Below are positions 17,698 through 33,075 of a stretch of DNA of 54,333 bases, one piece after another (positions within the stretch are counted from its first letter, which is position 1; every line of letters begins with the position of its first letter). Under the pieces are notes generated by a model. The model was not told where the DNA came from, did not search any database, and was given only the letters and a program-made list of their open reading frames with translations. The DNA comes from an uncultured Eubacteriales bacterium (GTDB lineage Bacteria > Bacillota > Clostridia > Peptostreptococcales > Anaerovoracaceae): the NCBI GenBank assembly GCA_902763505.1, contig CACWSO010000002.1:110712-165044 (forward strand), read 5' to 3'. Made by a program: the position numbers and the translations under genes.

Positions 17698-17725
17698 TGA
17701 AACACTGTGAAACATCGCTGAAACA
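17698..17725 (+). promoter_or_regulatory. Three phased TGAAACA repeats: candidate upstream activator site
   Basis: TGAAACA occurs at 17698, 17708 and 17719, that is, at 10- and 11-bp spacing, so all copies face the same side of the helix. They lie about 110-135 bp upstream of the sigma-54 promoter, the usual distance for enhancer-binding activators. The PrpR-type activator of this cluster is the obvious candidate to bind them. This is an inference from position and phasing. Confidence 0.5.
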
Positions 17726-17831: not shown

Positions 17832-17848
17832 TTGGCATGAAAAATGCG
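17832..17848 (+). promoter_or_regulatory. Sigma-54 (-24/-12) promoter
   Basis: TTGGCATGAAAAATGCG contains the invariant GG and GC with exactly 10 bp between them, as in the TGGCAC-N5-TTGCA consensus. The transcription start should be near 17859, 36 bp before the first gene. The cluster encodes its own sigma-54 activator at 23930-25771, which strongly supports the call. Confidence 0.8.
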
Positions 17849-17894
17849 TTATTAACATACAAAATGATGGAAGCAATAGGTTGAGGGCAAATAG

Positions 17895-19121
17895 ATGGGC
17901 ATGACTATCATTCAAAAGATAATAGCGAAACACACAAATCAAAGAGATGTAGAGGTAGGGAGTATCGTTGATATTTCTGTTGATAAAGTTCTTGTAAATG
18001 ATGTCACAGGGCCTATTTCTATAAAAAGAATGTCCGAAATGGGATTTGATAAAGTATTTGACCCTGAGAAAGTGATATTCGTAATGGATCACTTCACTCC
18101 AAATTCCAGCCTCGATGCAGCGACTCATTGCAAATTCTGCCGTGAATTTGCAAAGAATAATCAGATATTTAATTTTTATGACTCTGTAGGTATTGAACAT
18201 GTTGTATTGCATGAAGATGGTCTTGTGGCACCTGGTGAAGTCATAATAGGTGCGGATTCGCATTCCTGTACCCATGGCGCGGTTGGCGCCTTTGCAACAG
18301 GAATGGGGAGCACAGATGTCGCAGTTGCTATGGCTACGGGGAAGATCTGGGTAAAAGTTCCGGAAACGATTAAAGTAACATTTAAGGGTGTACTTAAGAG
18401 ACCGCTCTGCGGTAAAGATCTTGCGCTGAAAATGATCAAATCATTAAGAGCAGATGGTGCGACGTACAAAGCATTAGAAATCGGCGGAGAAGTAATAGAA
18501 TCACTTCCGATGTGTGACCGGTTTACCATCTGCAATATGGCAATCGAGACAGGGGCGAAGTGTGGAATCATTCACCCTGCTACAAAGGATTGTGCAACCT
18601 TCAAGAGTGATATCGATGCAGTTTATGACAGAGAGATAGTCATTGATGTTGATAGTTTAAGTCCACAGATTGCTTTGCCGGATTCACCAGATAAAGTAAG
18701 TGATATAGAAGATATCCATGAAAGAGTGGATCAGGTATTCATTGGTTCATGTACGAACGGAAGAATTGAAGATCTGCGGGCTGCAGCGCAGATCCTTGAT
18801 GGGAGAAAAGTCCATCCGGATGTTAGATTGCTCGTTACACCTGCAACCTTAAACGTGTTTAGGCAGGCAGAAACAGAAGGACTAATCAAGGTGTTTTTAG
18901 ATGCAGGAGCAATAATTGGAGCACCATCATGTGGACCTTGTTTTGGAGGCCATTCCGGAGTGCTGGCGAAAGGGGAAGTGTGCCTGTCAACAACGAATAG
19001 GAATTTTAAAGGGAGAATGGGTGACTTGGAAGCTAAAGTTTACTTGGGAAGTCCGGCAGTTGCGGCTACGACAGCAGTTAATGGGGTTATAAGCGACCCA
19101 AGAGAGGTAATGAATGAGTAA
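17895..19121 (+). CDS. Aconitase/LeuC-family large subunit, 2,3-dimethylmalate dehydratase (DmdA)-like
   Basis: The 408-aa protein is the large subunit of a two-part aconitase-superfamily (de)hydratase. It has HEDGLVAPGEVIIGADSHS, GSCTNGR (Cys286) and GAPSCGPCFGGH (Cys346, Cys349), the three cysteines that hold the [4Fe-4S] cluster. The two-subunit form is shared by isopropylmalate isomerase, homoaconitase and the dimethylmaleate hydratase DmdAB of nicotinate fermenters. No leuA or leuB is nearby, while a dimethylmalate-lyase-type gene and a methylitaconate-isomerase-type gene are, so a DmdA-like role (dimethylmaleate or similar + H2O to a dialkylmalate) is preferred. It is the first gene after the sigma-54 promoter and overlaps the small-subunit gene by 8 bp. 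Confidence 0.82.
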   Translation: MGMTIIQKIIAKHTNQRDVEVGSIVDISVDKVLVNDVTGPISIKRMSEMGFDKVFDPEKVIFVMDHFTPNSSLDAATHCKFCREFAKNNQIFNFYDSVGIEHVVLHEDGLVAPGEVIIGADSHSCTHGAVGAFATGMGSTDVAVAMATGKIWVKVPETIKVTFKGVLKRPLCGKDLALKMIKSLRADGATYKALEIGGEVIESLPMCDRFTICNMAIETGAKCGIIHPATKDCATFKSDIDAVYDREIVIDVDSLSPQIALPDSPDKVSDIEDIHERVDQVFIGSCTNGRIEDLRAAAQILDGRKVHPDVRLLVTPATLNVFRQAETEGLIKVFLDAGAIIGAPSCGPCFGGHSGVLAKGEVCLSTTNRNFKGRMGDLEAKVYLGSPAVAATTAVNGVISDPREVMNE

Positions 19122-19611
19122 AGTACATATTTTTGGTGACAACATAAATACAGATTATATCGTACCTGGAAAGTATCTAGACAACTCAAACCCTGACTTC
19201 CTCGCGACAGTATGTATGGAAGGATATGAGGAAGGGTACAGTAAGAAGATAAAGCAGGGAGATATATTTATTGCTGGTGAGAATTTTGGATGTGGCAGTT
19301 CGAGAGAACATGCACCTATAAGCATCAAGGCTGCGGGAGTATCGTACGTTATTGCGAGCAGCTTTGCCAGAATCTTTTATCGTAATGCGATCAACATTGG
19401 TCTTCCATTAATTGAACTTCAGGACGCATCTCTGAAAGTGGAGGAAGGAGATGCGATTGAAGTTCAATTCCATAAAGGCATTATAAAAAACCTTTCAAAA
19501 AACAAGAGTTATAAGTTCAAAGTTCCTCCAGATTTCATTGTCGAAATAATCAAGAAGGGAGGAATGGTTAATTATATAAGAATGAATAACTTAAAATCGT
19601 TAAAGGATTGA
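19114..19611 (+). CDS. Aconitase/LeuD-family small subunit, DmdB-like
   Basis: This 165-aa swivelling-domain subunit partners the preceding large subunit. It carries FGDNINTDYIVPGKYL at the start and the family motif ENFGCGSSREHAP (around residue 57), followed by SSFARIFYRNAINIGLPLIE. AGAGG precedes the ATG, which lies inside the end of the large-subunit gene, so translation is coupled. LeuD and DmdB cannot be separated by sequence alone; the context favours the latter. Confidence 0.82.
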   Translation: MSKVHIFGDNINTDYIVPGKYLDNSNPDFLATVCMEGYEEGYSKKIKQGDIFIAGENFGCGSSREHAPISIKAAGVSYVIASSFARIFYRNAINIGLPLIELQDASLKVEEGDAIEVQFHKGIIKNLSKNKSYKFKVPPDFIVEIIKKGGMVNYIRMNNLKSLKD

Positions 19612-19659
19612 ATACTTAAAGATAGTTATAGTTAGTAAAACAATAAGAAAGGAGAAAAA

Positions 19660-20985
19660 ATGAACGAGCAGAAAGAAAAACGTCAAGTCTTTGATGACGA
19701 TTATGAATTAACGCAAATACCCCTAAATAAGAGAAAAAGCATTCTGGCAATCGCTTTTGTTCTTGGCGGTATGGCGCTGAATTCAACAGAAGTAGTTTCT
19801 GGAGGAACAATTGCTGCTCCACTCGGACTGCAAATGGGTTTGATCGCACTGGGGATAGGTTCATTCCTTGATGCGCTACTGGCATTCTCATTATCATTTC
19901 CTGCAGCAAGGTATGGAGTAACTTTTTCACTCCAGACTCGATATGCTTTTGGTACTTTAGGCAACAAAGTTCCATCATTCATGCTGACAGCAATACTGCT
20001 TGGTTGGCTAGGATTCCTAATCGCATTGCTGGCAGATGGTATCGTCGCAATATTCCCGGGAATCAATTGGCACCTGATGGTATTCATTGCTGGTTTCGGT
20101 ATGCTGTTTGTATCACTGAAAGGAGTTAAAGGACTGCAGTATTTCGGTTATTTAGCAGTACCGATTGTAATTGTAACAGGTGTATATGGAATATATACAA
20201 TCAGTGAGTCTGTCCCTAAATTTATTGAGGCTGACCCGAATGCATCATTTACGATCGGAGTATCGCAGGCATTTGCAGCAGCTGTAACAGCAGGTCTAGT
20301 TTATACAGATGTCAGCAGATTTGGTAAGACACCATTAAGAGGTGGCATAGGCGCCTTTGTAGGCGCGTTCTGCGGTCTGATGTTCTGTCGAACGGTAGGT
20401 GCGTTTACCGCAGCTGCTACTGGTGAAACAGAATACATCCTTGCATTTATGGCTTTAGGTCTTGGAGTTCCTGCTTTCCTCTTCCTGGTATTCAACCTGA
20501 CGTCGTCCATTGATACACAGCTTTATTCTGTAGGCCTTGGTTTCGCAAACGTATTCAATTACAGCAGAGTTAAGCTGACTGCTATTGGTGGTGTAATTGG
20601 TGTATTGGTAGCAATCACCGGTGTAATTGATTACTGGACTGCATGGCTCAGTACGCTGGGTGTAATAGTTCCACCGCTTGGAGGAATTATGCTTGCTAAC
20701 TATTATGTAACCTGCAAGGTCGGATACTGCGCACTTGAGGATATCAAATGCAAGATCAACTGGGTTGCAATCATTTCATGGTTGATTGGAATCGGATGTT
20801 CGATGGTAAGCGACTTCTGTCCATCAATTCAGGGAATAATCGGAGGATTCTTTGCATATGCAATCATCATGGCAGTCATCAAAAAGACCAAATATGAAAC
20901 ATGGAAATATCTGACGAATTATGATCAGGCTGTTGCATATAATGAGAGAATCGAACAAGAAAAAAATGTTGCTGTTAATGAGTAA
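19660..20985 (+). CDS. NCS1-family heterocycle permease
   Basis: This 441-aa protein with about 12 helices is a paralogue of the permease at 542-1831. DYELTQIPLNKRKSIL, NSTEVVSGGT and TFSLQTRYAFGTLGNKVPS are shared blocks. AGAAAGGAG precedes the start. It lies between the hydratase pair and the flavin reductase, so the likely substrate is the N-heterocycle or cyclic amide that the cluster degrades. NCS1 carriers are known for cytosine, uracil, allantoin, hydantoins and similar rings, which agrees with the cyclic amidase encoded downstream. A perfect 16-bp hairpin follows the gene. Confidence 0.87.
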   Translation: MNEQKEKRQVFDDDYELTQIPLNKRKSILAIAFVLGGMALNSTEVVSGGTIAAPLGLQMGLIALGIGSFLDALLAFSLSFPAARYGVTFSLQTRYAFGTLGNKVPSFMLTAILLGWLGFLIALLADGIVAIFPGINWHLMVFIAGFGMLFVSLKGVKGLQYFGYLAVPIVIVTGVYGIYTISESVPKFIEADPNASFTIGVSQAFAAAVTAGLVYTDVSRFGKTPLRGGIGAFVGAFCGLMFCRTVGAFTAAATGETEYILAFMALGLGVPAFLFLVFNLTSSIDTQLYSVGLGFANVFNYSRVKLTAIGGVIGVLVAITGVIDYWTAWLSTLGVIVPPLGGIMLANYYVTCKVGYCALEDIKCKINWVAIISWLIGIGCSMVSDFCPSIQGIIGGFFAYAIIMAVIKKTKYETWKYLTNYDQAVAYNERIEQEKNVAVNE

Positions 20986-21009
20986 ATAGTTTGGTAATGC
21001 TGAAAGACA

Positions 21010-21047
21010 GGTAGATTGCACTTAAATGCGATTAAGTGCAATCTACC
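21010..21047 (+). repeat. Perfect 16-bp inverted repeat after the NCS1 permease
   Basis: GGTAGATTGCACTTAA (21010-21025) and TTAAGTGCAATCTACC (21032-21047) are exact complements around a 6-nt loop. No U-run follows. It ends 13 bp before the ribosome binding site of the flavoenzyme gene. An mRNA-processing or stability element, partial attenuation, or a protein operator are all possible. Confidence 0.88.
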
Positions 21048-21072
21048 CGCAATAGAAAATGGAGGGAGCAAA

Positions 21073-22983
21073 TTGACCAATATGATACTGACACCTATAA
21101 AAATAGGAAACCAGATAATAAAAAACAGATTTGTGGTTCCCGCTATGGCAACCAATTACTGCGATCATAACGGTTATGCGACAGAAAGGTTTATTAGATA
21201 TCTGGAACGCAAATCACAGGGCGGATGGGGCTTAATTATTACAGAGAACTACGCGGTAAATCCGGAGGGAAGGGGATTATGGGTTCCTGGCCTCTGGGAA
21301 GATGGTCAGATCGAAGGCCATAAGAAAATGACCAACGCTGTTCATGCGACTGGGTGCAAGGTTATTGCTCAGATTTATCATGCCGGAAGACAGACTTCAC
21401 GTAACATAACAGGAGCAGATCTTCTTGCGCCTTCGGCAATACCATGTCCTGTTATGCAAGAACTGCCTAAAGAATTGACTTATGATCAAATCGAAGGAAT
21501 CAAGAGAGATTTCGTTATGACAGCTAAGAGAGCGCAGAAAGCAGGATTTGATGGAATTGAGTTGCACTGCGGACATGGCTATCTCCTTGCTGAATTCCTT
21601 TCGACTTATGCAAATAAAAGAACAGACAAATATGGCGGCAATCTAACTAACAGAATGAGATTACCGCTTGAGATATATAGAATGATTCGCAACGAGTGTG
21701 GATCCGATTTTCTAATCACTTGCCGTATTTCAGGGGACGAATTTGTTCCTGGAGGTCGAACTATCGAAGAAACGAAGCAAATTGCGTCAGCTTTTGCCAA
21801 GGAAGGTTTTGATGCAATGCATATCACCGCTGGGGTATATGAAAGTACAGAATACATCATGCAACCAATGTATGTTCCCAGTGGTTTTTTAGTAGATTTT
21901 GCTGCTGAAGTAAAAAGTGTAGTGGATATTCCGGTAATCACAGTAGGAAGAATCAATGATCCTGATATGGCTGAGAAGATAATCCAGTCAGGAAAAGCAG
22001 ATATGGTATCTATGGGGCGAGCCAGTCTTGCAGATCCGGATTTGCCGAACAAATATATGGATGGTGATTTGGCGGATATCAGGCAATGTATCGCTTGTCA
22101 ACAGGGATGCAAGGACAACGCAGGCAAAGGTGAGCCTATTTGTTGTCTGGTCAACCCTAAACTTGGATTCGAGTACGAAGAAAGCGATACTCATACAGAA
22201 AGCAAAAAAATCGATGTAGTTGGTGGTGGAGTTGCAGGAATGGAAGCAGCAATAGCAGCAAAAGATGCCGGGCACGATGTGACACTCTATGAAGCAACAG
22301 ATCGCCTTGGTGGACAGTTTGAAATTGCAGCGTACCCACCGGCAAAGGGCATTTTGGCCACATTAATTGCGTGGGAAAGACACCAGCTAGAAAAACGGGG
22401 TATCAATATTAATATGAATACAGAATATACTGCTGATATCTGTATGAAAAAGCAGCCGGATGGAGTCATTATAGCGACAGGTGGAACACCAAAAGTCCCT
22501 AGAATTGAAGGAATCGATTTACCGCATGTTGTTACCGCAACTGATGTTTTGAGGGGAAAGTCAGAAGTCGGAGGCAGAGTCGTAGTTGCCGGTGGCGGGA
22601 TGATAGGAACTGAAACCGCAGATTATTTAGCCACTTATGGAAAGAGTGTGACAATAGTGGAAATGCTGCCGGAGGTTGCTATGGAAGAAGAACCTTCCAG
22701 AAAAGTATTCTTGATGGAGTCCCTTACAAAAAGAGGGGTAAATATTCTAGTCGATACAAAAATCAAATCTATTTCTGAAAGAGGGGTTGTACTAGAAAAC
22801 AAAACAAATGAAAAGACCGTAGAAGCGGATTCAGTAGTCATCGCACTCGGAATGAATTCAGTTAATGAGCTTGCAGATGAGCTGCAAGGAAAAACTAAAA
22901 TCGAGGTCATTGGTGATGCGAAGACTGTACGAAATGCACTTTATGCAGTCAGAGAAGGTTATCTGGCAGGAAGAAATATTTAA
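21073..22983 (+). CDS. NADH:flavin oxidoreductase, FadH/BaiCD-type (FMN, 4Fe-4S, FAD)
   Basis: I chose TTG 21073, 6 nt after GGAGGG; an ATG at 21082 is 15 nt away, and starts further upstream would lie in the hairpin. The ~636-aa protein has three parts. Residues about 1-340 form an Old-Yellow-Enzyme TIM barrel (GFDGIELHCGHGYLLAEFLS; KYGGNLTNRMR). Next is a CIACQQGC...C cysteine cluster for one [4Fe-4S]. Last is an FAD/NAD(P)-binding domain with VGGGVAGMEAA and VVVAGGGMIGTETA. This is the layout of 2,4-dienoyl-CoA reductase and bile-acid C=C reductases, which reduce activated double bonds. Here it probably saturates a C=C of the imported ring or of an unsaturated intermediate. Confidence 0.88.
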   Translation: MTNMILTPIKIGNQIIKNRFVVPAMATNYCDHNGYATERFIRYLERKSQGGWGLIITENYAVNPEGRGLWVPGLWEDGQIEGHKKMTNAVHATGCKVIAQIYHAGRQTSRNITGADLLAPSAIPCPVMQELPKELTYDQIEGIKRDFVMTAKRAQKAGFDGIELHCGHGYLLAEFLSTYANKRTDKYGGNLTNRMRLPLEIYRMIRNECGSDFLITCRISGDEFVPGGRTIEETKQIASAFAKEGFDAMHITAGVYESTEYIMQPMYVPSGFLVDFAAEVKSVVDIPVITVGRINDPDMAEKIIQSGKADMVSMGRASLADPDLPNKYMDGDLADIRQCIACQQGCKDNAGKGEPICCLVNPKLGFEYEESDTHTESKKIDVVGGGVAGMEAAIAAKDAGHDVTLYEATDRLGGQFEIAAYPPAKGILATLIAWERHQLEKRGININMNTEYTADICMKKQPDGVIIATGGTPKVPRIEGIDLPHVVTATDVLRGKSEVGGRVVVAGGGMIGTETADYLATYGKSVTIVEMLPEVAMEEEPSRKVFLMESLTKRGVNILVDTKIKSISERGVVLENKTNEKTVEADSVVIALGMNSVNELADELQGKTKIEVIGDAKTVRNALYAVREGYLAGRNI

Positions 22984-22997
22984 GAAGAAGGTATTCA

Positions 22998-23855
22998 ATG
23001 AAAAATAGGTCTATTAGAGAAAAACTTAATAACAATGAGTTTATTTGTGCTATAGGGATTGGAAATGCACTGGAGGCCAAACTGGTTGAGGCGGCGGGTT
23101 TTGATTGTATCTATATGACTGGTTATGGTGTAGTTGCTGAGAATTTTGGCATGCCTGATATCGGTCTTGTGACCATGTCAGAAATGGCAGAAACGGCAAG
23201 ACGCATCGCAAATGCGACAACGCTTCCTGTGATAGCAGATGCAGATACTGGCTACGGCAACTCTATAAACGTGATGCGCACGGTAAAGGAGTATGAGTCG
23301 GCAGGCGTTTCAGTAATTCAATTTGAAGATCAGACTTGGCCAAAAAGATGCGGCCATATGGATGGGAAGACATTGCTTCCGGCAGAAAATATGGTGGCAA
23401 ACATCAGAGCTGCAGTTGAAGTCAGGAAAAAAGATGATTTTCTGATTATAGCTAGAACAGATGCTGTTGCCGTTGAAGGATTTGAGGCAGCTATTGAAAG
23501 AGGAATGATGTATGCAGAAAACGGTGCAGACATCATATTTGTTGAAGCACCAACAGACTTAAAGCAAGTTGAGGAAATACCAAAGAGATTTGGAGATATT
23601 CCAACATTGTACAATCTTTCACCTCGCTCTCCAGATCTCAGTTGGCAGCAAGTTGCAGATATGGGATTTTCCATTGCCATATATCCATGTATCTGTATTG
23701 CCCCACACGTTTATGGGGTGCAGCAGGAACTTCAGGCATTCAAGGAAACGGGATATTCGCCATCATTTGGCAGATGGGCAAAGGAATTTGCAGATACAAA
23801 CGATTTTCTCGGGCTTAGAGAATTAAGGGAAAAAGAGAAAAAATATTCTAAATAG
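22998..23855 (+). CDS. Isocitrate-lyase/PEP-mutase superfamily C-C lyase, 2,3-dimethylmalate lyase or methylisocitrate lyase-like
   Basis: The 285-aa TIM barrel contains DADTGYG (metal site, D81/D83) and the flexible-loop motif PKRCGHMDGK with catalytic Cys118. Together these mark the lyases of the family (PrpB, dimethylmalate lyase, oxaloacetate hydrolases) rather than the mutases. In nicotinate fermentation the dimethylmalate lyase splits 2,3-dimethylmalate into pyruvate and propionate. Co-occurrence with a DmdAB-like pair, and absence of a citrate synthase or PrpC, favour that reaction or one with a related 2,3-dialkylmalate. It is a compact operon member, 14 bp after the flavoenzyme gene. 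Confidence 0.85.
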   Translation: MKNRSIREKLNNNEFICAIGIGNALEAKLVEAAGFDCIYMTGYGVVAENFGMPDIGLVTMSEMAETARRIANATTLPVIADADTGYGNSINVMRTVKEYESAGVSVIQFEDQTWPKRCGHMDGKTLLPAENMVANIRAAVEVRKKDDFLIIARTDAVAVEGFEAAIERGMMYAENGADIIFVEAPTDLKQVEEIPKRFGDIPTLYNLSPRSPDLSWQQVADMGFSIAIYPCICIAPHVYGVQQELQAFKETGYSPSFGRWAKEFADTNDFLGLRELREKEKKYSK

Positions 23856-23929
23856 TACGATAATACCATAAACTGTATACTATATTAAGGCAATCACAGC
23901 TGATATCTAGAAAAGAAAGAGGTGATATC

Positions 23930-25771
23930 ATGAACCAAATAGCCGTCGTAGGATACAGTAAGCTAAACAGCCAAATCAATAAAATCAAGCACAGATATCC
24001 GGGAATTCAGTTTGATATGCTGGAAGTTAATCTGGATCGAGTTGTGGATACGGTCAAGCAGTATTATACCAAACACAATAATTGCGTATTCATTTCATCT
24101 GGTGCTAATGCGAGAATCATCTCAGAAAATTTGGATGTACCATTCGTAGAAATCAATTCAACAGGATATGATCTTCTGACAACCTTTGGAGAGATTCGTC
24201 TTCTTAGCAATCATGTCATGATAGCGACGTATAAGGAAAAGCTCCCTTATTTAAGCAAGGTCAAACATATTTTTAATATCGACTACACCGAGAGAGTTTA
24301 TCATGATCAGAATGAACTAAAAATGATCATCGATGAATGCAAAGAAAAAGGCATCCATGACATCATCGGGAGCAGTATGGTTTGTGAGACAGCGGAGAAA
24401 AACAATATCCGAAGTTATATGCTTTGGTCTGAACCAGCAATATGTTATGCCATAGATAATGCAATCAGCATATATGATGCGAGAGAAAGTGCCATAGAAA
24501 ATGTTGAGCGTCTCAAGACATTATTAAACTTTGCGCATGAGGGCATCATTGTTACAGACAGGGATGGCACCATAGAACTGTTCAATTCAAAAGCTGAGAG
24601 ACTGATTGGCGTGAGAGCTCACAGAGCCATCGGTAGCAATATTACACGTGTAGTAAAAAATACTCGAATAGATAGTGTGCTAAAAGATGGAAGAGCTGAA
24701 CTAAACCAGATACATAGCTTAAATGATGTGAAGATATTGACAAACCGTGTTCCTATTATCATCGATAATGAGACAGTTGGCGCTATCGCAACATTCCAGC
24801 AGTTAGATGCAGTACAAAAGGCAGAAGAGGAGATACGAAAATCACTGTCAAAGAAAGGATTTATTGCGAAAATCACATTTGATGATATTCTCAGACAATC
24901 CCCGAAAATGGAGAAAGTAATCCAAATGGCAAAACGGTATGCAAAGACCGATGCCAGCGTAGTGATTCGCGGAGACAACGGAACAGGCAAAGAGCTCTTG
25001 GCCCAAAGCATCCACAATTACAGCATGCGAAAAGGAGGACCGTTTGTAGCAATCAACTGCGGGGCAATCGCTCCATCCTTGTTGGAAAGTGAGTTGTTTG
25101 GTTATGAAGGTGGAGCATTTACCGGTGCCTTAAAAAGTGGAAAAAGAGGTATTTTTGAAATCGCCCACAAAGGAACGTTGTTCTTAGATGAAATAGGCGA
25201 AATGCCTCTGGAAATACAGACCAAATTGCTCAGGGTTCTTGAACAAAAGCAAATCATGAGAGTTGGTGGAGAAACGATTGTTTCTGTAGACGTCAGGATT
25301 ATTGCAGCAACTAATAAGAACCTATATGACATGGTGGAAAGAGGAGAATTCAGAGCAGATCTTTATTATCGATTGAATGTACTTGGGCTAAATATTCCAT
25401 CACTAAATGACAGAAAAGAAGACATTGTCATAATTGGGAAGAAATTGCTTCAGGAAAACCGGAGGGATATTTCGGATGAAGAGGCAGAAAAAATAGGGCG
25501 TTATATTTCGCAGTTAGATTATAGCTGGCCGGGAAATGTCAGAGAGCTTCGAAACATCATTGAACGGTTCAGCAGTTTATACAATTTAGACGAGGATGCG
25601 TATCAGTTGTTAGACCAATGTATTTTATTAGAAAATGAACCGAGGGAAAAAAGCAATATTTTAGAAGCATTGAATAAATTTGAAGGAAGAAAAAAGGAAG
25701 CTGCAGATTATCTCGGTATTAGCAGAACAACATTATGGAGAAAAATGAAGGAATTAGGGATTGAAGATTGA
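23930..25771 (+). CDS. PrpR-type sigma-54-dependent transcriptional activator
   Basis: The protein is 613 aa. The N-terminal ~190 residues are a PrpR_N sensor domain (FISSGANARIISENLDVPFVEI). Residues about 195-300 form a PAS domain (LNFAHEGIIVTDRDGTIELFNSKAE). Then comes a sigma-54 AAA+ domain with Walker A GDNGTGKE, the sigma-54 contact loop GAFTGA and Walker B GTLFLDEIGEMP. The C-terminal Fis-type HTH reads KKEAADYLGISRTTLWRK. PrpR proteins respond to pathway acids such as 2-methylcitrate. It sits inside the cluster, downstream of the sigma-54 promoter at 17832, so positive autoregulation is likely. RBS AGAGGTGAT precedes the ATG. Confidence 0.92.
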   Translation: MNQIAVVGYSKLNSQINKIKHRYPGIQFDMLEVNLDRVVDTVKQYYTKHNNCVFISSGANARIISENLDVPFVEINSTGYDLLTTFGEIRLLSNHVMIATYKEKLPYLSKVKHIFNIDYTERVYHDQNELKMIIDECKEKGIHDIIGSSMVCETAEKNNIRSYMLWSEPAICYAIDNAISIYDARESAIENVERLKTLLNFAHEGIIVTDRDGTIELFNSKAERLIGVRAHRAIGSNITRVVKNTRIDSVLKDGRAELNQIHSLNDVKILTNRVPIIIDNETVGAIATFQQLDAVQKAEEEIRKSLSKKGFIAKITFDDILRQSPKMEKVIQMAKRYAKTDASVVIRGDNGTGKELLAQSIHNYSMRKGGPFVAINCGAIAPSLLESELFGYEGGAFTGALKSGKRGIFEIAHKGTLFLDEIGEMPLEIQTKLLRVLEQKQIMRVGGETIVSVDVRIIAATNKNLYDMVERGEFRADLYYRLNVLGLNIPSLNDRKEDIVIIGKKLLQENRRDISDEEAEKIGRYISQLDYSWPGNVRELRNIIERFSSLYNLDEDAYQLLDQCILLENEPREKSNILEALNKFEGRKKEAADYLGISRTTLWRKMKELGIED

Positions 25772-25820
25772 TCGGTAAATGCTTGGATCAACCGATAGGT
25801 TGGAGGATAAGGAGGATATT

Positions 25821-26756
25821 ATGAAACTTAAAGTTTGTGGATTACAGATTGGAGTATGGAAGGAAGGGGAAACCGTAGAATCTTACACCAATAAGCACAT
25901 TGAACTTCTGGAAAGAGCAGTTAAAGAAGAATCCGAAAAGGAAGGCGGCAAACCTTATGTCTGTGTTTTGCCTGAAACAATGACGTATGCATATTTTGCA
26001 GGGGTAGTTGATGACAAATGGTTCAACTATTTTGAGGATGCACAGACCGGACCTACAACAACAAAGATGATTCAACTTGCGAAGGAACTGGATGTACATA
26101 TTGTTTACAGTTTTGTGGAAAAAGCAGTTGAGTTTGGAGTGAATCACTACTACAACAGTTGTGCAATGGTATCACCAACAAGAGGTCTGATTGCAGTTTA
26201 TAGAAAATGTCATATTCCTTATATGGATTTCGATCACATGCAGGTTCATGAGAGCTATTATTTCGAACCAGGACAAGTCCTGCCTGTATTTAAGATGGAC
26301 AATGGTGTTACGTTTGGAATGTTGCTCTGCTATGACCGTTCATATCCTCTGGCATGGCAGACACTGTATCTGCAGGGTGCCCAGATGGTATTCCTGCCTG
26401 CGTGTGCGTGGGGTTTCCGTGGTCAGTTCTTCCAGAATGAGTTGAGAACCAGAGCTTTTGAAACCCATACCTTTGTTGTTGCAGTTAACAGAGCCGGAGA
26501 TGAGCAGGTTGAAGGTGAAAGACTTGTCAGAAATCACTTTGGTAAGTCTCTCATTGCAGGACCAACCGGTGAGCTGATCACTTCTCTCGAAAAGGAGCAG
26601 TGGGAATACATCGCAGCAGTTGTAGATCTGGATGAAATTGAGCAGGCTCATTTGACGTTGCCGTTCAAACTTGACAGAAGACCTGATTTATATGGAATCT
26701 GCACTGCAAAGGGAACCTTTGGCTCACCATATATCCATACACATAATCGTCCGTAG
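25821..26756 (+). CDS. Carbon-nitrogen hydrolase (nitrilase superfamily amidase / N-carbamoylase-like)
   Basis: The start at 25821 follows GGAGGATATT; a longer frame from 25779 has no such site. The 311-aa protein shows the Glu-Lys-Cys triad of the superfamily: LPET (Glu52), YRKCHIP (Lys129) and LLCYDRSYP (Cys170). These enzymes hydrolyse amides or N-carbamoyl groups, releasing ammonia (and CO2 for N-carbamoyl substrates). It lies directly before a dihydropyrimidinase-type gene. That pairing is known from reductive pyrimidine degradation, hydantoin use and cyclic-imide degradation (imidase plus half-amidase), so it probably acts on the opened ring. Confidence 0.87.
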   Translation: MKLKVCGLQIGVWKEGETVESYTNKHIELLERAVKEESEKEGGKPYVCVLPETMTYAYFAGVVDDKWFNYFEDAQTGPTTTKMIQLAKELDVHIVYSFVEKAVEFGVNHYYNSCAMVSPTRGLIAVYRKCHIPYMDFDHMQVHESYYFEPGQVLPVFKMDNGVTFGMLLCYDRSYPLAWQTLYLQGAQMVFLPACAWGFRGQFFQNELRTRAFETHTFVVAVNRAGDEQVEGERLVRNHFGKSLIAGPTGELITSLEKEQWEYIAAVVDLDEIEQAHLTLPFKLDRRPDLYGICTAKGTFGSPYIHTHNRP

Positions 26757-26802
26757 CCATGCTTTAGTCAGACAACTCTTATGAATAGAAATGGAGGACA
26801 AA

Positions 26803-28266
26803 ATGAAAGCAGATTTAATCGTAAAAAATGGTATTGTCGTTACTAATGAGGGTCTCATAAAAGGTGGTGTTGCAGCAAAAGATGGTGTGATTGTTGCAAT
26901 AGCTGCTGACGAGAACTTGCCAGAAGCAGAAAAAGAATATGATGCGAAAGGGCTTTTGATAATGCCGGGCGTTATTGAGCCACATTGCCATCTGGGACTT
27001 GATAAAAACGAAGATGGCTCCTTTAAGGGAGTCGAAAGATATATTGAAGATGTTGCAACAGAATCAAAGGCCGCTGCAGTAGGAGGAATCACTACAATCA
27101 ATACTACTGTTGAAGGGCTTGGGCCAGGGGGAAAGCGTTTCTATGGTGTAAAGAACAAAATGGAAAATGCGAAACCTGCATTAGATAATGCATATGTAGA
27201 TATTAAGTATTATCTTGGGGTCAAGGATGACGAAGAAATTGCGGAGTTTAATGAACTGAGAGATGAGGGGCTGCTGAGTTGTGCGAAGGTATTCTTGGGA
27301 TTTAAAGGCGCTGCAGCAAAGGTGTTCGGACATCCGGAAGAAGGATATAGTAATGATTTCCTGTTCCGTGCAGCCAGAGACCTTGCCGCGCAGAAGGGTC
27401 CTGTCCAGCTGATGGTTCACTGTGAGGATGCTTCAGTCATGAATTACATGGCACCAGCAATTGAGGCAGAGGGTCCGGTATGCGGCAACTATATTGACCT
27501 ATATGACAGATCACGGCCGGGTTTTCTAGAAGCTATGGATTTGTGCAAGATGGCATATATTACACACTACCACAATTGTCCGCTGTACATAGTTCATATT
27601 AGCGCCAAGGAAACAGTCGACCAGTTGGAGTGGTTCCAGAGTAAAGGATATAAAATCACAGGAGAGACGTGTCTGCATTATCTGCTGCTGGCTTCTGACG
27701 ATCCGATTTGCTTTGAGAATCCGGATTGGAACAATATGGCCAAAGTGTCTCCTCCAATTAGAAACAGTTCAAACAGGGATGCACTGTGGCGCGGAGTAAT
27801 GAACGGATCCATAACCTGTATTGGCACTGATCACGTAAATTATAGTGCTCACACAAACAAATTAGGAGGTAGCTTTTGGGATGCCCCGGGCGGATGCGGA
27901 GATGGCATGAGTTTGTTAATGACCGCGCTCTTCTCTGAGGGAGTCGTAAAACGTAAAATGCCGGTTGAAGATTTCACAAAACTAATGAGTGAGAATCCAG
28001 CAAAAGCACTGGGGATCTATCCGCAGAAGGGAGCCATCAGAATTGGATCAGATTTTGATGTAGTTGTCTTCGACCCTCACGAAAAATGGAAGTTCTCATT
28101 TGAAGATACATACTCCACCCATTATGGAAGTATTTACGAAGAAAGAGAGTTCCAGGGCAGACCAAAGGCCACTTTCGTAAGAGGAACAATGATTGCTGAG
28201 AATGGAAAAATCGTCGTAGGTAAACCGACTGGTAAATATGTAAAGAATTCCACAACAACTTATTAA
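26803..28266 (+). CDS. Dihydropyrimidinase/hydantoinase-family cyclic amidohydrolase
   Basis: I placed the start at 26803 because GGAGG (26793-26797) lies 5 nt upstream; the ATG at 26791 overlaps that site. The 487-aa protein has all binuclear-metal ligands of the family: HCH (His61, His63), the Lys in FLGFKG (Lys168, normally carboxylated), His206 in MVHCEDA, His265 in YIVHIS and Asp343 in IGTDH. Family reactions open cyclic amides: dihydropyrimidines, hydantoins, cyclic imides, allantoin, or tetrahydro-6-oxonicotinate (enamidase). It follows the nitrilase-type gene and precedes the first MmgE/PrpD gene by 14 bp. Confidence 0.9.
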   Translation: MKADLIVKNGIVVTNEGLIKGGVAAKDGVIVAIAADENLPEAEKEYDAKGLLIMPGVIEPHCHLGLDKNEDGSFKGVERYIEDVATESKAAAVGGITTINTTVEGLGPGGKRFYGVKNKMENAKPALDNAYVDIKYYLGVKDDEEIAEFNELRDEGLLSCAKVFLGFKGAAAKVFGHPEEGYSNDFLFRAARDLAAQKGPVQLMVHCEDASVMNYMAPAIEAEGPVCGNYIDLYDRSRPGFLEAMDLCKMAYITHYHNCPLYIVHISAKETVDQLEWFQSKGYKITGETCLHYLLLASDDPICFENPDWNNMAKVSPPIRNSSNRDALWRGVMNGSITCIGTDHVNYSAHTNKLGGSFWDAPGGCGDGMSLLMTALFSEGVVKRKMPVEDFTKLMSENPAKALGIYPQKGAIRIGSDFDVVVFDPHEKWKFSFEDTYSTHYGSIYEEREFQGRPKATFVRGTMIAENGKIVVGKPTGKYVKNSTTTY

Positions 28267-28280
28267 CGAGGAGGTTTAAT

Positions 28281-29621
28281 ATGGCAAAAAAAAATCTGAC
28301 CGAAATAATAGTTGATTTCATTTGTGATACACAGTATGAAGATATCCCTGAAATTGTGGTCGAAAACGCAAAGGGGAGAATTCTCGATTCTATCGGCGTT
28401 GCGTTCAAGGGAGGAACAGAATCTGTTGGAGAAACAGTCAAACGTTTTGCAAGAGAGAATTGCCACGGCGAAGAAGCGACAGTTATAAACGGTGGTTTCA
28501 AGACGAACTATCGAGACGCTGCCTTTGTGAACGGCGTGCTGACCCATGCGATCGATTTCGATGATCACTTTATCCTTTCACATCCGAGCATGGGAGTTGT
28601 ACCAGCACTGCTCTCAATAGCAGAAAAGGTAAATGCTTCAGGCAAGGAAATGATTACAGCTTTTGTTGTTGGTCTGGAAATCTATACAAAAGTACAGCAA
28701 TGCACAAGTACAGAACCATGGTACAGAGGGTTTCATGCTTCTGGTATATGGGGCGGATTGTCTGCAGTTGCTGCCGCAGGGAAACTACTGAAACTGGACA
28801 AGAAGCAAATGACAATGGCGTGGGGAATCGCATGTTCAACATTCTGCGGTCTGAAGAGAAACATGGGGACAATGACAAAGCCATATCACTGTGGACGTTC
28901 AGTAGAAGGAGGCGTACTTGCAGCACTGCTGGCAAAACAGGGCTTTACATCTCATCCGGAAGCTTTTGAGGGAAGATTTGGATACCTGCACGTGTTCTGC
29001 ACAAAACCACGTACCGAATATATTGAACAGTTGGGGAAGGTGTGGGATCTTAAAGAAACTCCGACGCTGATCAAGCCACATCCATCCTGCGGAGGCACGC
29101 ATGCCGCTATGAATGGAATGCTGGAATTGATTCGTAGATACGATATCAGAGAAGAGGATGTCGAAAAAGTTGATGTTGGTATGAATCAAGGCGGTGTGGA
29201 TTCTCTGTATTATCCGAACCCTAAGGATATTTATGAAGCAAAGTTCAGTATGCACTTCTGTATGGCACTTCTGCTGCACTACAGAAGATGGGGATTATCT
29301 CTGCACACAGATGAAGTTGTGAACAGTGAGCCGATGAGAGCGTTATACCCTAAGGTGAACTTCTTCGTCGATGAAGAGTTAGATAAGACAATTGACAGAG
29401 ATTACACAGATTATTATGCGGTGGTCACTGTAACAATGAAAGACGGGACAGTACATACTATTCAGTCTAATCCACCAGTTCTGGATTTCAATCAGATCAA
29501 AGACAAGTTTAAGGATTGCGTTTTCCCGATTGCAGGGAAAGAAAGAGGGGAAGCAATTATAAAAGTCGTTGAAGAACTGGAAGTCTATAACCAGAGTGAT
29601 CTCATGGGCCTTCTCGCTTGA
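28281..29621 (+). CDS. MmgE/PrpD-family protein, copy 1
   Basis: The 446-aa protein has the family's N-terminal helical domain pattern HAIDFDDHFILSHPSM (about residue 92), then GFHASGIWG and GTMTKPYHCGRSVEGGVLAALLAKQGF. Known members are 2-methylcitrate dehydratase (PrpD), cis-aconitate decarboxylase and iminodisuccinate epimerase, all acting at carbons next to carboxylates of small di- or tricarboxylic acids. GAGGAGG precedes the start. A second, quite different member lies two genes downstream, so two separate steps or a heteromeric pair are possible. The reaction cannot be assigned. Confidence 0.87.
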   Translation: MAKKNLTEIIVDFICDTQYEDIPEIVVENAKGRILDSIGVAFKGGTESVGETVKRFARENCHGEEATVINGGFKTNYRDAAFVNGVLTHAIDFDDHFILSHPSMGVVPALLSIAEKVNASGKEMITAFVVGLEIYTKVQQCTSTEPWYRGFHASGIWGGLSAVAAAGKLLKLDKKQMTMAWGIACSTFCGLKRNMGTMTKPYHCGRSVEGGVLAALLAKQGFTSHPEAFEGRFGYLHVFCTKPRTEYIEQLGKVWDLKETPTLIKPHPSCGGTHAAMNGMLELIRRYDIREEDVEKVDVGMNQGGVDSLYYPNPKDIYEAKFSMHFCMALLLHYRRWGLSLHTDEVVNSEPMRALYPKVNFFVDEELDKTIDRDYTDYYAVVTVTMKDGTVHTIQSNPPVLDFNQIKDKFKDCVFPIAGKERGEAIIKVVEELEVYNQSDLMGLLA

Positions 29622-29634
29622 AAGGAAAACAAAG

Positions 29635-30792
29635 ATGTCAGAACAAAGACGGTTTGAATGCACAATTATGAGAGGTGGCAGCAGTAAGGCGGTGTTCTTT
29701 AAAAAGGACAGATTGCCAGATGACGCGGTTCTTCGCGATCGCATTATTCTAGCAGCTTTTGGCAGTCCGGATGTCAGACAAATCGATGGACTGGGCGGGA
29801 GTGATATCACCACTTCTAAAGTTGCTATTATCGGACCGCCAACCAAGGAAGACGCTGATATAGATTATCTATTTGGGCAGGTCCAGATTAACGCCCCAGA
29901 AGTAATATGGAATACGAATTGTGGGAACATATCAGCGGCAGTCGGGCCCTTTGCTATTGACGAGGGGTTGGTAGAAGCGCAGGAGCCTTATACGATATTG
30001 CGAATTAACAACCTCAGTACCGATAAAACAATTATTGCAAGGGTACCGGTCAAGGGCGGCAAGGCGGTCGTACAAGGTGACTACGAGATACCGGGGGTTC
30101 CGGGTAGTGGAGCCAAGATTGAACTGGATTACAAAGAGTGTATCGGTGCAGCCACAGGGAGACTCCTCCCTACTGGAAATGTATCAGACATTTTGGATGT
30201 CCCTGGCATTGGGCGTGTGGAAGTGAGCATTGTAGACATTGCAAATTCTGTATGCTTCGTTAAGGCAGAAGATATTGGTGTTAACGGCTACATGTCTCCT
30301 CCGGAAATACGAGGTGATAAGGAACTGCAGAACAAGCTGGAGGCAATTCGAAATGAGGCAGCAAAGGCAATGGGACTGATTTCCGAGGGAGATGTTGCAC
30401 TGGAAAAAAGTCCAATACAACCATTGATATCCTTTGTCAGCCAGGCAAATGATTACATAGACTATGGAACGGGGAAGACAATCAAAGGGGAAGACATGGA
30501 TTTTGCTGCCAGAATTCTCTTTAATCAGATGCCGACTGATAGTTTTCCTATTACTGCAACTATCTGCATTTCTGTTGCTTCGCAAATAAAGGGAACTGTT
30601 GTTAACAGTATTATGAATGAGAATCAAGTTGGGAGAGGTGCTGTTAACTTCGGGCACGCCCGGGGGATCAATCACGTTGAAGTTGTTGTAAATGAGAATA
30701 ATGGAAATATTACGGTAGAAAAGGCACTGGTCGGAAGGACAGCCAGAAGGTTGATGGACGGAAATGTATATGTACGTCCGGATGTTTTTTGA
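29635..30792 (+). CDS. PrpF/methylitaconate delta-isomerase-family protein
   Basis: I chose ATG 29635 (MSEQRRFECT), 8 nt after AGGA; longer frames run into the preceding gene. The 385-aa protein has the DapF-like fold signature of the PrpF/Mii family: an N-terminal IMRGGSSKAVFF, DGLGGSDITTSKVA, a central NCGNISAAVGPFAI, and a second-half VGRGAVNFGHARG. Characterised relatives isomerise 2-methyl-cis/trans-aconitate (PrpF) or 3-methylitaconate to 2,3-dimethylmaleate (Mii). With the DmdAB-like hydratase and the lyase present, a Mii-like isomerisation feeding dialkylmaleate to the hydratase is the simplest reading. Confidence 0.85.
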   Translation: MSEQRRFECTIMRGGSSKAVFFKKDRLPDDAVLRDRIILAAFGSPDVRQIDGLGGSDITTSKVAIIGPPTKEDADIDYLFGQVQINAPEVIWNTNCGNISAAVGPFAIDEGLVEAQEPYTILRINNLSTDKTIIARVPVKGGKAVVQGDYEIPGVPGSGAKIELDYKECIGAATGRLLPTGNVSDILDVPGIGRVEVSIVDIANSVCFVKAEDIGVNGYMSPPEIRGDKELQNKLEAIRNEAAKAMGLISEGDVALEKSPIQPLISFVSQANDYIDYGTGKTIKGEDMDFAARILFNQMPTDSFPITATICISVASQIKGTVVNSIMNENQVGRGAVNFGHARGINHVEVVVNENNGNITVEKALVGRTARRLMDGNVYVRPDVF

Positions 30793-30813
30793 ATGATCAT
30801 TCAGGAGGAAAAA

Positions 30814-32187
30814 ATGAACAATAAAAGTATTTCTGAAACTATTACAGAATTTGTTTTGAATCTAAAATATGAGGATATTCCACCAGAAGTTATCGATTAT
30901 GCGAAACTGCTTTTGATAGATTCATTGGGATGCGCAGAAGCAGCGATTGATGAGCCACATGCGAAACAGCTGTTTGAAGCAATTTCTAAAAAAGACAGTC
31001 ATGATGAAGCTAGACTCTGGGGATCCGATATAATGGTGGACCTTGACGATGCAGTAATCTACAATGGAAGCCTTATACACGGACTGGACTACGATGATAC
31101 CCATGCATTGGCAATTACACACCCGAGCAGCTCTGTAGCAACTGCAGGGCTGACGATAGGTGAGTACTTGAATAAATCTGGAAAGGATATCATCACTGCA
31201 ATGATAGCTGGATATGAAGTGTTACTGCGACTGGGGTCATATGCAAACGGTGGGCTTCATGACAGAGCATTTCATCCGACGGGTTGCTTGAATGCATTTT
31301 CCTCAGCTTGTATCGCAGGAAAACTAATGGGAGTAGAGCCTCTTGTACTGCGGAACGCATTAGGCATTTGCGGAAGCCAAGCAGCTGCGATTCTGGAGTT
31401 TCTGAATGATGGTACCGATGTTAAAAAGATACATCCGGGATGGGGAATTCATTCTGCATTGTATGCATTAGACTATGCAGGGTACGGGTTTACGGGTCCA
31501 ATCAAAGTATTTGAAGGAGTTCAAGGATATTTCGCCGCACACATTGGGCGGACGGAAGGAATTGAGGAGGTCTTTTCTGATTTTGGTAACCGTTGGTACA
31601 CAAGTGAGATCGCTTTTAAATTCTATCCGGTATGTCATTGGTTGCATGGATTTAATGATATTCTCTTCAAAATGGAAGAAGAAAACTCGTTTGGTGCTGA
31701 TGATATAGAGACCCTCGAATGCATAATTGATGAACGTGTGAGTGAGGTCGGATATGCAGCACCGGATAAATTGAGACCAGCAACAGAATATCACCAGAGA
31801 TTCAGTCTGTATTATACCATTGCCATGGCGGCTTACAAAGGCAGACTTGGACCAAAAGAGATTAATGCTGAACATATGAAGGATCAAGGGCTTTTAGACA
31901 TGATAGATCGCGTCAAGATCAAAGTCGATCCTGATGCATATGTACCAGGAGCTTTCCCTGCTCAGTTGAATGTCACTTTGAAGGATGGCCGCCAATTTTG
32001 CGGATCGCAGCCTTATGAAGTTGGAAACAAAAAGAATCCAGCCAAGAAGGAACATGTCCTGAGAAAGTATTATGACAACACATTGGATTATATCGGTAAG
32101 GACAAAGCAGATAAGATTGTCGAAGATGTTGAGAACTTCGAAACGCAGACAAATGTAGCTGATATTCTGGACAACCTGAAAAGATAG
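30814..32187 (+). CDS. MmgE/PrpD-family protein, copy 2
   Basis: The start at 30814 follows AGGAGG; an in-frame ATG at 30793 overlaps the previous stop and lacks a ribosome binding site. The 457-aa protein shows HGLDYDDTHALAITHPSS, AFHPTGCLNAFSSA and a GWGIHSALYALDYAGYGFTGP segment. The last replaces the KP.H.G-type stretch seen in copy 1, so the active sites differ. It is co-transcribed with PrpF and the SDR. It probably dehydrates, epimerises or decarboxylates a pathway acid; the reaction is unknown. Confidence 0.86.
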   Translation: MNNKSISETITEFVLNLKYEDIPPEVIDYAKLLLIDSLGCAEAAIDEPHAKQLFEAISKKDSHDEARLWGSDIMVDLDDAVIYNGSLIHGLDYDDTHALAITHPSSSVATAGLTIGEYLNKSGKDIITAMIAGYEVLLRLGSYANGGLHDRAFHPTGCLNAFSSACIAGKLMGVEPLVLRNALGICGSQAAAILEFLNDGTDVKKIHPGWGIHSALYALDYAGYGFTGPIKVFEGVQGYFAAHIGRTEGIEEVFSDFGNRWYTSEIAFKFYPVCHWLHGFNDILFKMEEENSFGADDIETLECIIDERVSEVGYAAPDKLRPATEYHQRFSLYYTIAMAAYKGRLGPKEINAEHMKDQGLLDMIDRVKIKVDPDAYVPGAFPAQLNVTLKDGRQFCGSQPYEVGNKKNPAKKEHVLRKYYDNTLDYIGKDKADKIVEDVENFETQTNVADILDNLKR

Positions 32188-32231
32188 ATTTTGAAAAGAA
32201 AGCGTATTGAATAACGTGAAAGGAGAATCAA

Positions 32232-32999
32232 ATGGGGAAATTAGATGGTAGAGTAGCCGTAGTAACAGGTGCTGCGAGAGGAATCGGTGCGGCTGCAGCA
32301 GAGGCTTTAGCGAAGGAAGGTGCGAAGGTCTGTGTTAACATCCGTTCAGAGTCAAGAAGAGAAGAAGCAAATGGTGTTGTTGAAAAAATCAAAGCACAAG
32401 GCGGTGAAGCATTTGTGTATCAGGCGGATGTGACCCAGCCGGAAGAAGTATGCGCGATGTTTAAAGAGGTTGCGGATAGATATGGCGGCATCGATATCCT
32501 TGTAAATAATGCCGGAACGCTTGTGCGTGGAAGACTGCAGGATACAAGCTATGAGGATATCGACAAAATGCTCCGCGCAGACCTGTTCTCAGTTTGCGTA
32601 TGTATGAAAGAAGCATATCCATATCTTGTTAAATCAAAACACGGTAGAGTAATTAATGTAACCTCTCAGCTTGGGCAAAAGGGCGAAGGTGAAGTTGCGA
32701 TCTACTGTGCTGCCAAGACAGGAGTTATTGGACTTACAAGAGCAATGGCATTAGAGTACTCTGCTCTTGGTGAAGGAAATAATATTCTTGTAAATGCCGT
32801 GGCACCAGGACCAATCGAAGGAGGCTTATCAGCCGATATGAGTCCAGAACTGAGGGAACTTAAGGAAGCAACTTTACCGCTTGGTAGACTTGGAACTCCA
32901 GAGGAGTGTGCATCTTCGTTTGTATTCCTCGCTGGAGATGAATGCACTTTGTTCTATGGACAGACATTAGGTGCGACATGTGGAGACACGATGGTTTAA
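32232..32999 (+). CDS. Short-chain dehydrogenase/reductase (FabG-like)
   Basis: The 255-aa protein is a classical SDR: TGAARGIG near residue 13 (NAD(P) binding), NNAG near 90, the catalytic Ser in NVTSQLG, and YCAAK for the Tyr/Lys pair. Last-gene position before a terminator indicates a pathway role, for example reducing an aldehyde or ketone released by ring opening, rather than fatty-acid synthesis, since no fab genes are near. AAAGGAG precedes the ATG. Confidence 0.88.
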   Translation: MGKLDGRVAVVTGAARGIGAAAAEALAKEGAKVCVNIRSESRREEANGVVEKIKAQGGEAFVYQADVTQPEEVCAMFKEVADRYGGIDILVNNAGTLVRGRLQDTSYEDIDKMLRADLFSVCVCMKEAYPYLVKSKHGRVINVTSQLGQKGEGEVAIYCAAKTGVIGLTRAMALEYSALGEGNNILVNAVAPGPIEGGLSADMSPELRELKEATLPLGRLGTPEECASSFVFLAGDECTLFYGQTLGATCGDTMV

Positions 33000-33038
33000 G
33001 ATCAGGATGAGGGATGTCAAATCTCCTATATTATTTGG

Positions 33039-33075
33039 AAAGCCCCGGTTGTGCATGGATCGGGGCTTTTCTTTT
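33039..33075 (+). terminator. Rho-independent terminator of the twelve-gene cluster
   Basis: AAAGCCCCG (33039-33047) pairs with CGGGGCTTT (33061-33069) and is followed by TTCTTTT. It lies 40 bp after the SDR stop. Confidence 0.88.

Follow-up and report, generated by a model that had tools for sequence, protein, structure and literature searches.

A twelve-gene operon of an uncultured Eubacteriales bacterium, possibly for anaerobic breakdown of a small cyclic amide

The DNA analysed here, referred to as the window, is a stretch of 54,333 nucleotides from an uncultured Eubacteriales bacterium of the family Anaerovoracaceae (assembly GCA_902763505.1, contig CACWSO010000002.1, positions 110,712 to 165,044 of the forward strand). 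It contains a putative operon of 12 open reading frames (ORFs), all in the + strand, which occupy positions 17895-32999 and, judging from the families they represent, are best called a nicotinate-type acid-cleavage module joined to a cyclic-amide-opening module. Twelve co-directional genes behind a sigma-54 site (17833) had been recognized here in a sequence-only reading of the window, and both this layout and the inventory of gene families named there are borne out by our searches of NCBIfam, Pfam, and PDB sequences, from which the family assignments come. The features of the locus are as follows.

17698..17725, + strand: three TGAAACA direct repeats (starts 17698, 17708, and 17719), seen in the sequence, of presumed function
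17833..17848, + strand: putative sigma-54 type -24/-12 promoter TGGCATGAAAAATGCG, a match to a relaxed pattern
17895..19121, + strand: large subunit of an aconitase-family hydratase (LeuC/HacA/DmdA group; NCBIfam hacA_fam, 533 bits, past the subfamily cut-off)
19114..19611, + strand: small subunit of an aconitase-family hydratase (LeuD/DmdB group; TIGR02087, past the subfamily cut-off)
19660..20985, + strand: NCS1 permease of the cytosine-permease branch (NF008241, 203 bits, below the cut-off of 326; Pfam PF02133)
21082..22983, + strand: OYE/FadH-type flavin Fe-S C=C oxidoreductase (Pfam PF00724; start picked by alignment)
22998..23855, + strand: C-C lyase of the ICL/PEP-mutase superfamily with the KRCGH motif and an unusual NLSPRS pocket (Asn206-Ser211)
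23930..25771, + strand: PrpR-type sigma-54 activator (PrpR_N, PAS, AAA+ with GAFTGA, and HTH_8)
25821..26756, + strand: CN hydrolase of the nitrilase superfamily (Glu, Lys, Cys triad seen by alignment)
26791..28266, + strand: dihydropyrimidinase (DHPase)-like cyclic amidohydrolase of dihydropyrimidinase/hydantoinase type (metal-ligand positions conserved)
28281..29621, + strand: MmgE/PrpD protein 1 (closest solved relative iminodisuccinate (IDS) epimerase, 192 bits)
29635..30792, + strand: PrpF-family isomerase of the 3-methylitaconate isomerase (Mii) clade (3G7K, 354 bits, vs. PrpF, 241)
30793..32187, + strand: MmgE/PrpD protein 2 (closest solved relatives a Bacillus IRG1 homologue and IDS epimerase)
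32232..32999, + strand: short-chain dehydrogenase/reductase (SDR), assigned by family search

The spacing of the 12 genes ranges from -8 to 96 bases and, with the starts adopted, all of them begin with ATG; the starts of the OYE (21082), CN hydrolase (25821), and isomerase (29635) genes are later than those of the longest ORFs. The relaxed -24/-12 pattern has its single match in both strands of the window at 17833, as compared to a mean of 0.23 and a largest number of 3 in 200 mononucleotide shuffles. A stricter consensus, with one mismatch allowed, misses this site and gives 3 matches elsewhere, which is the chance level. The TGAAACA repeats, 108 to 135 bases upstream of the promoter, could be activator sites; the upstream gene has a terminator-like stem with its end at 17485. 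Four weak terminator-like sites are present in the + strand within the operon, and the whole scan gave 8 such sites, below the shuffle mean of 10.8. No terminator was found in the + strand between 32999 and 33600, and hence position 33075, given earlier as the end of this group, is not a marked boundary. The twelve genes presumably form one transcript.

Among the matches listed, no protein of the operon reaches an equivalog cut-off, and subfamily cut-offs are reached by the two hydratase subunits only; by these scores the operon proteins are related to known enzymes, but their membership in the functional classes of the latter is not confirmed. In the alignment, the DHPase-like protein has HxH, Lys, His, His, and Asp at what we take to be the binuclear metal-ligand positions of DHPases, carbamylated Lys included, while its score with the TIGR02033 equivalog model is 254.5 bits at a cut-off of 393.25. 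The Glu, Lys, and Cys residues of the CN hydrolase are presumably its catalytic triad. The Fe-S cysteines of the OYE/FadH-type protein are conserved, and the MmgE/PrpD proteins have the Pfam N and C domains of their family together with its conserved His and Lys residues. With MmgE/PrpD protein 1 as the query, a plasmid search gave a locus in which several PrpD genes accompany a tricarboxylate transporter, which is not specific.

The large subunit of the hydratase scores 383 bits with PDB isopropylmalate/citramalate isomerase. That it serves as the isopropylmalate isomerase of leucine biosynthesis does not agree with the separate LeuA, LeuB, and LeuC, which the host encodes together at C8, a result in favour of the earlier reading. 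The C-C lyase retains the catalytic motif KRCGH and the Arg of ARTD; in the available part of PMC7609661, Cys191 and Arg228 are given as the catalytic residues of M. tuberculosis ICL. The pocket of the operon lyase, NLSP followed by Arg and Ser, is unlike those of all 25 relatives aligned with it: 24 of them have N-[MW]-[VIAL]-E, and the remaining one, from locus L107, has NAT with the same two-residue deletion as the operon lyase. The relevant residues are NMVE in the solved dimethylmalate lyase 3FA3, NITE in E. coli PrpB, and NLTE and NMTE in two solved PrpB chains. Among the plasmid loci described below, the lyases of Shinella and Antarctobacter have a longer and different pocket stretch (NMGFG...), and that of Hydrogenophaga has NITE. 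E. coli isocitrate lyase has YNCSPSFNW at the stretch that corresponds as judged by eye, the aligner being several positions off. The terminal branch of the operon lyase is long (2.32 vs. a median of 0.36).

The NMVE-type pocket is presumably the specificity determinant, residues of the PrpB motifs presumably have functional roles, and, according to published structures, these residues would line the pocket of the C3 side chain. Since the operon lyase has neither the 2,3-dimethylmalate lyase signature (NLSP with the two-residue deletion stands in its place) nor that of PrpB (no N-[ILM]-T-E and no Arg of PLSAFRAMNR), the acid that it cleaves is not assigned. The sequence-only reading had ended the pathway in cleavage of dimethylmalate, and this finds no support in the pocket or in the hydratase of the nicotinate-type cluster of genome G548, which is 71% identical to host LeuC vs. 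47% to the operon protein. If the pocket residues do line the C3 side chain, a polar or charged side chain would be more likely than the methyl of dimethylmalate. The YLDN motif of the small hydratase subunit, at a position of which the homoaconitase motif has an arginine, does not help this idea.

The PrpR, PrpF, PrpD, and PrpB family labels, common to the operon and the 2-methylcitrate cycle, could also be read as those of a 2-methylcitrate (propionate) operon with unrelated neighbours, which we regard as hardly probable. The operon encodes no methylcitrate synthase, its lyase lacks the PrpB pocket threonine in addition to the Arg mentioned above, its isomerase is nearer Mii than PrpF, and, among the matches listed, the equivalog cut-offs of prpB (246.3 bits vs. 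354.4), prpF (270.6 bits vs. 440.55), and prpD are not reached. The only citrate-synthase family protein of the genome, the substrate of which is not assigned by sequence, has no relatives of operon genes nearby.

In the phylogenetic tree, the isomerase is placed in a fully supported clade (100/100), the 16 rows of which represent 11 nicotinate-type loci, G468 (two rows), G874, G1007, and the operon; short matches, of less than 200 aligned residues for lyase and less than 300 for DmdA and Mii, were omitted from the trees. The nicotinate-type label was given on the basis of Pfam to locus L027, of G548, and on the basis of BLAST to L027, B12 mutase included, to the other ten loci. The L027-type cluster, which we take to be the Eubacterium barkeri type nicotinate fermentation cluster, shares with the operon the Mii-type isomerase, LeuCD-type hydratase, and ICL-family lyase. 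It differs by the presence of molybdenum hydroxylase, enamidase, 6-hydroxynicotinate reductase, B12 mutase, and MutL, while NCS1, the DHPase-like protein, CN hydrolase, two PrpD, OYE, and SDR are extra in the operon. The common families and the position of the isomerase might indicate degradation of a pyridine carboxylate by a nicotinate-like route, in which DHPase would replace enamidase on a six-membered lactam and the remaining steps would be encoded elsewhere; an NCS1 permease, 24% identical, is also present in the nicotinate-type locus L099. We consider this route quite improbable. Not only are molybdenum hydroxylase, enamidase, and 6-hydroxynicotinate reductase missing from the operon, to which the search for this set was confined, but two PrpD and a CN hydrolase would be surplus. 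A relative of the G548 B12 mutase is present in all the other nicotinate-type loci (10/10), whereas in the host genome, which is 96.5% complete, the three B12-binding hits are by domains a MetH-like protein and two aminomutase-type proteins; B12 mutase, noted previously as missing here, was not found in the rest of the genome either.

Clusters of nicotinate-fermentation type (L121-L124, L027, L092, L094, L095, L099, and L105) span several Firmicute families. Their hydratases are LeuC-like in some cases (that of L027 is close to host LeuC) and form a separate clade in others, and hence the hydratase seems to have been recruited more than once.

Lyase matches were found in 42 other genomes, and 20 stretches were examined. 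As to the question raised earlier of whether the genes travel as a unit, the full 12-gene set was found nowhere else in the DNA searched, but two sub-sets of it recur. The first is the carboxylate module. In the Firmicute G874, one stretch encodes PrpR, an isomerase of 51% identity, the small and large hydratase subunits, OYE, TctA, a TctB-sized ORF, TctC, and two MmgE/PrpD, and adjoins a divergent lyase gene, which makes up 8 of the 12 operon genes by family; the transporter is of tricarboxylate type, and no NCS1, DHPase, CN hydrolase, or SDR is present in this stretch. Locus L120 (C68) of its relative G1007 contains PrpR, Mii, DmdAB, OYE, three Tct relatives, and one PrpD, along with a succinyl-CoA-ligase-like pair and an HMGL-like protein, and the ICL-family lyase of this genome sits in a different locus; such a composition suggests that here the same acid pathway takes a CoA-dependent form. 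The MatC/CitMHS transporter of G468 is encoded along with PrpR, hydratase, lyase, isomerase, PrpD, a DUF1847 protein, and a methyltransferase. Of the 18 genomes in the G874 family, 6 were found to have the isomerase, two of its loci being of the acid-module kind (G874 and G1007) and four nicotinate-type. Because of the G874, G1007, and G468 loci, OYE, PrpD, isomerase, hydratase, and lyase appear to work as a unit on an imported acid, and in the operon the ring enzymes may deliver the acid to this module. A tandem of three ICL-family lyases and two LeuCD-type hydratase pairs lies beside a PrpR-type regulator in locus L090 (G711:C44, 223-6427), where the next ORF is of 503 aa; the like-sized ORF of the similar loci L088 and L089 encodes a sodium:solute symporter.

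The second sub-set contains the ring-opening enzymes. In the Firmicute G776, PrpD, SDR, and three further ORFs are followed by OYE, a DHPase-like protein, an isochorismatase-family amidase, a second OYE, two ETF subunits, DmdAB hydratase, lyase, and an ABC transporter. Of the matches to this amidase, the best is N-carbamoylsarcosine amidohydrolase (91.6 bits), followed by 3ot4/3uao (83.6 bits), the latter of which, 3uao, is presumably maleamate amidohydrolase. No second cluster was found in the family of G776 (1 of 3 genomes, G776 itself). At the top of the plasmid list for the operon DHPase are haloarchaeal proteins adjoining an isochorismatase gene. In plasmids of Natrinema zhouii, Haloferax alexandrinus, Halorubrum ezzemoulense, and Natrinema versiforme, genes of an isochorismatase amidase and a DHPase-like protein are followed by those of CoA transferase, HMGL, and LeuCD, with an ICL-family lyase and an MmgE/PrpD gene in addition in N. 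versiforme; a flavin-dependent oxidoreductase is annotated in all four loci (of FAD_binding_2 type in N. zhouii). The Shinella and Antarctobacter loci encode a DHPase-like protein, isochorismatase, AcnA, and an ICL-family lyase. In Hydrogenophaga, the DHPase-like locus has a PrpB-type lyase, and in Methylobacterium nodulans two MmgE/PrpD, a flavoprotein, and ETF genes.

To compare these loci, we used the annotation around the DHPase-like gene in 19 plasmid loci, with isochorismatase or CN hydrolase counted as linear amidase. Hydratase together with a C-C lyase was present in 6 of 11 loci with a linear amidase (Natrinema zhouii, Haloferax, Halorubrum, N. versiforme, Shinella, and Antarctobacter) and in none of the eight loci without it, where hydratase was missing altogether. 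This sample is small and partly hand-picked, and no probability is claimed for the difference. From the 28 and 46 plasmid records of two lists, nine were opened (H38, H45, H47, H52, H54, H56, H74, H84, and H85), mostly for suggestive neighbour names or kinship. Six of the eight amidase-free loci are controls picked from 30 evenly spread rows; Halomarina and Antarctobacter, already opened, were among the same rows, and many dihydroorotase rows from Klebsiella and E. coli were skipped as redundant. The recurrence across lineages of a cyclic amidohydrolase with a linear amidase, an aconitase-family hydratase, and a C-C lyase favours the ring-amide logic, and the earlier idea of a ring amide opened, de-amidated, and cleaved as a diacid gains support from this comparison of independent gene clusters.

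Two of the amidase-free loci, those of Paracoccus and Streptomyces, have an asparaginase and an aldolase/citrate-lyase protein with a PrpF-domain protein, respectively. In the former (L137, 8989-13608), the dihydropyrimidinase gene lies near a polysaccharide-deacetylase gene and that of the asparaginase; the polysaccharide-deacetylase family includes known cyclic imidases. In the latter (L141, Streptomyces zaomyceticus plasmid, 3163-10443), the PrpF-domain, aldolase/citrate-lyase, acyl-CoA dehydrogenase, and dihydroorotase-like proteins are encoded near an enediyne chromoprotein gene.

The nature of the ring may be considered in view of its expected product, as a ureide would yield an amino acid and an imide yields a diacid directly. 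In the case of a ureide (dihydropyrimidine or hydantoin), DHPase would open the ring, CN hydrolase would release CO2 and ammonia from the carbamoyl group, and the amino acid so formed would be processed further. The NCS1 and DHPase families are typical of ureides, the closest relatives of the CN hydrolase are N-carbamoylputrescine amidase, beta-ureidopropionase, and N-carbamoyl-D-amino-acid hydrolase, the best score of the G776 isochorismatase points in the same direction, and the nearest DHPase in the order sample (G165) adjoins a gene of M20 peptidase, a ureide-type partner. Reductive pyrimidine degradation proceeds by a reductase, DHPase, and CN hydrolase, which are common to the operon, but the operon has the diacid module and lacks a DPYD-type reductase and aminotransferase (looked for in the operon only). 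We find a ureide unlikely: neither aminotransferase nor ammonia-lyase is present among the 12 operon genes, all of which are assigned to families, and DHPase-like genes recur beside those of diacid-directed enzymes, namely aconitase-family hydratases and C-C lyases. The annotation of the Natrinema zhouii, Haloferax, Halorubrum, N. versiforme, and Antarctobacter stretches likewise contains no aminotransferase or ammonia-lyase. The lack of these two enzymes in the operon makes a cyclic imide fit somewhat better than a ureide.

The preferred reading, to which we give about an even chance of being right, is that the operon, when induced, serves to import a small cyclic amide and break it down anaerobically, with a substituted cyclic imide of maleimide, succinimide, or glutarimide type as the most likely substrate. 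The imide would be imported by the NCS1 permease and opened to a half-amide by the DHPase-like enzyme, and the CN hydrolase would release the half-amide nitrogen as ammonia, leaving a substituted C4-dicarboxylate core. OYE and SDR would adjust C=C or C-OH, whereas the two MmgE/PrpD proteins and the Mii-type isomerase would act on stereochemistry, elimination, and double-bond position. The LeuCD-type hydratase would then form a substituted malate, which the ICL-family lyase would cleave to a 2-oxoacid and a second carboxylic acid. The families, conserved residues, operon layout, and recurrence of two sub-sets are observed; the substrate, the order of steps, the direction of OYE and SDR, and the products are those that we infer, and the case for the imide comes from gene context.

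Several results weigh against this reading. The closest relatives of the CN hydrolase, named above, suit a ureide, and the Shinella stretch ends in an aminotransferase gene. Two amidase-paired loci (Halomarina and Hydrogenophaga) have the lyase only, and three (Aminobacter, Variovorax, and Methylobacterium) have neither hydratase nor lyase, Variovorax being the one amidase-paired locus with a CN hydrolase. Four of the six positive loci are from related haloarchaea, and several loci were opened for their suggestive neighbour names. The DHPase-like protein is at most 34% identical to any relative found, and its position in the tree is not settled. Its insertion of residues behind the carbamylated lysine, present in most amidase-paired proteins and missing in E. 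coli HyuA and the G165 protein, is shared by two proteins that are not amidase-paired, E. coli AllB and one from a Natrinema plasmid 2.

In tetranucleotide composition, the operon correlates at 0.77 with the mean of five other host genome stretches, as compared to 0.89 and 0.91 for the two flanks and 0.93 to 0.97 for the five stretches among themselves, and its G+C content is 0.424 vs. 0.488 to 0.519. Among 49 genomes of the genus, the host's own was the one with a PrpF-family match, and at E<=1e-60 DHPase was found in 2 of the 297 order genomes, the host among them. The simplest reading of these sequence features is that the operon was gained horizontally; as its flanks are of intermediate composition, a chimeric contig in this draft genome is a less likely alternative. 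The upstream PRPP synthetase occurs in so few genomes of the genus (4 of 41 at E<=1e-100, own included) that comparison of the insertion site failed. The search of plasmids with DHPase gave 1026 records, all below 60% identity, the best of the matches listed being 34%, and that of genome contigs gave a single match of 26%. CN hydrolase (E<=1e-45) was found in 2 of 398 genomes of the phylum, own included; the other match lies in a 4.6-kb contig with an Fe-S protein and one further protein, which gives no pathway clue. In plasmids, the best CN hydrolase among the matches listed is 31% identical.

A literature search, mostly of titles and abstract openings of openly available papers, gave no description of this gene combination, and for an isonicotinate/citrazinate route, also considered, it gave nothing useful. 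Riboflavin degradation was rejected, as the gene neighbourhood given in the available part of a preprint (PMC12934955) differs from the operon. According to the part of PMC9304392 at hand, the hxn nicotinate breakdown of Aspergillus nidulans runs through OYE, SDR, cyclic imidase, and amidase in that order, a logic common with the operon and a precedent for the combination. As described there, this pathway is fungal, includes monooxygenase steps, and ends at hydroxyglutarate without the hydratase and lyase module, and its imidase HxnM resembles a peptidoglycan-deacetylase-type protein, not DHPase. In the itaconate/methylsuccinate degradation cluster of PMC12290011, as far as its available part indicates, an MmgE/PrpD protein acts on a C4-dicarboxylate, as it would in the operon, but the chemistry is that of CoA-esters instead of an ICL-type lyase.

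A broader idea, which we put forward tentatively and with some doubt, is that Firmicutes, haloarchaea, and Proteobacteria share one catabolic strategy, of which the literature search gave no description: a DHPase-like imidase and a linear amidase would make a diacid from a substituted cyclic imide, an aconitase-family hydratase would add water, and one of several non-homologous lyases would cleave the product. The operon would be the anaerobic version, with its lyase adapted to an acid with a polar or carboxylate side chain. The tetrapyrrole source of the ring proposed in the sequence-only reading did not find support in our results; within this strategy, a tetrapyrrole fragment of hematinic-acid type is one candidate substrate. 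If true, orphan DHPase-like enzymes, orphan MmgE/PrpD proteins, and relatives of dimethylmalate lyase would be united in one pathway logic, genes would be named for the recovery of nitrogen and carbon from cyclic imides by bacteria and archaea, and the operon would illustrate how a module for carboxylate degradation could gain an importer and two hydrolases.

Elsewhere in the host genome (G000:C9, about 32660-49066; L036, L037), a citrate-lyase ACP, a second OYE/FadH protein, and a single-chain aconitase are encoded within about 17 kb. Downstream of the operon, the 799-aa protein encoded at 33494-35893 has a weak match to a transglutaminase-related lipoprotein model and N-terminal repeats rich in Gln/Glu.

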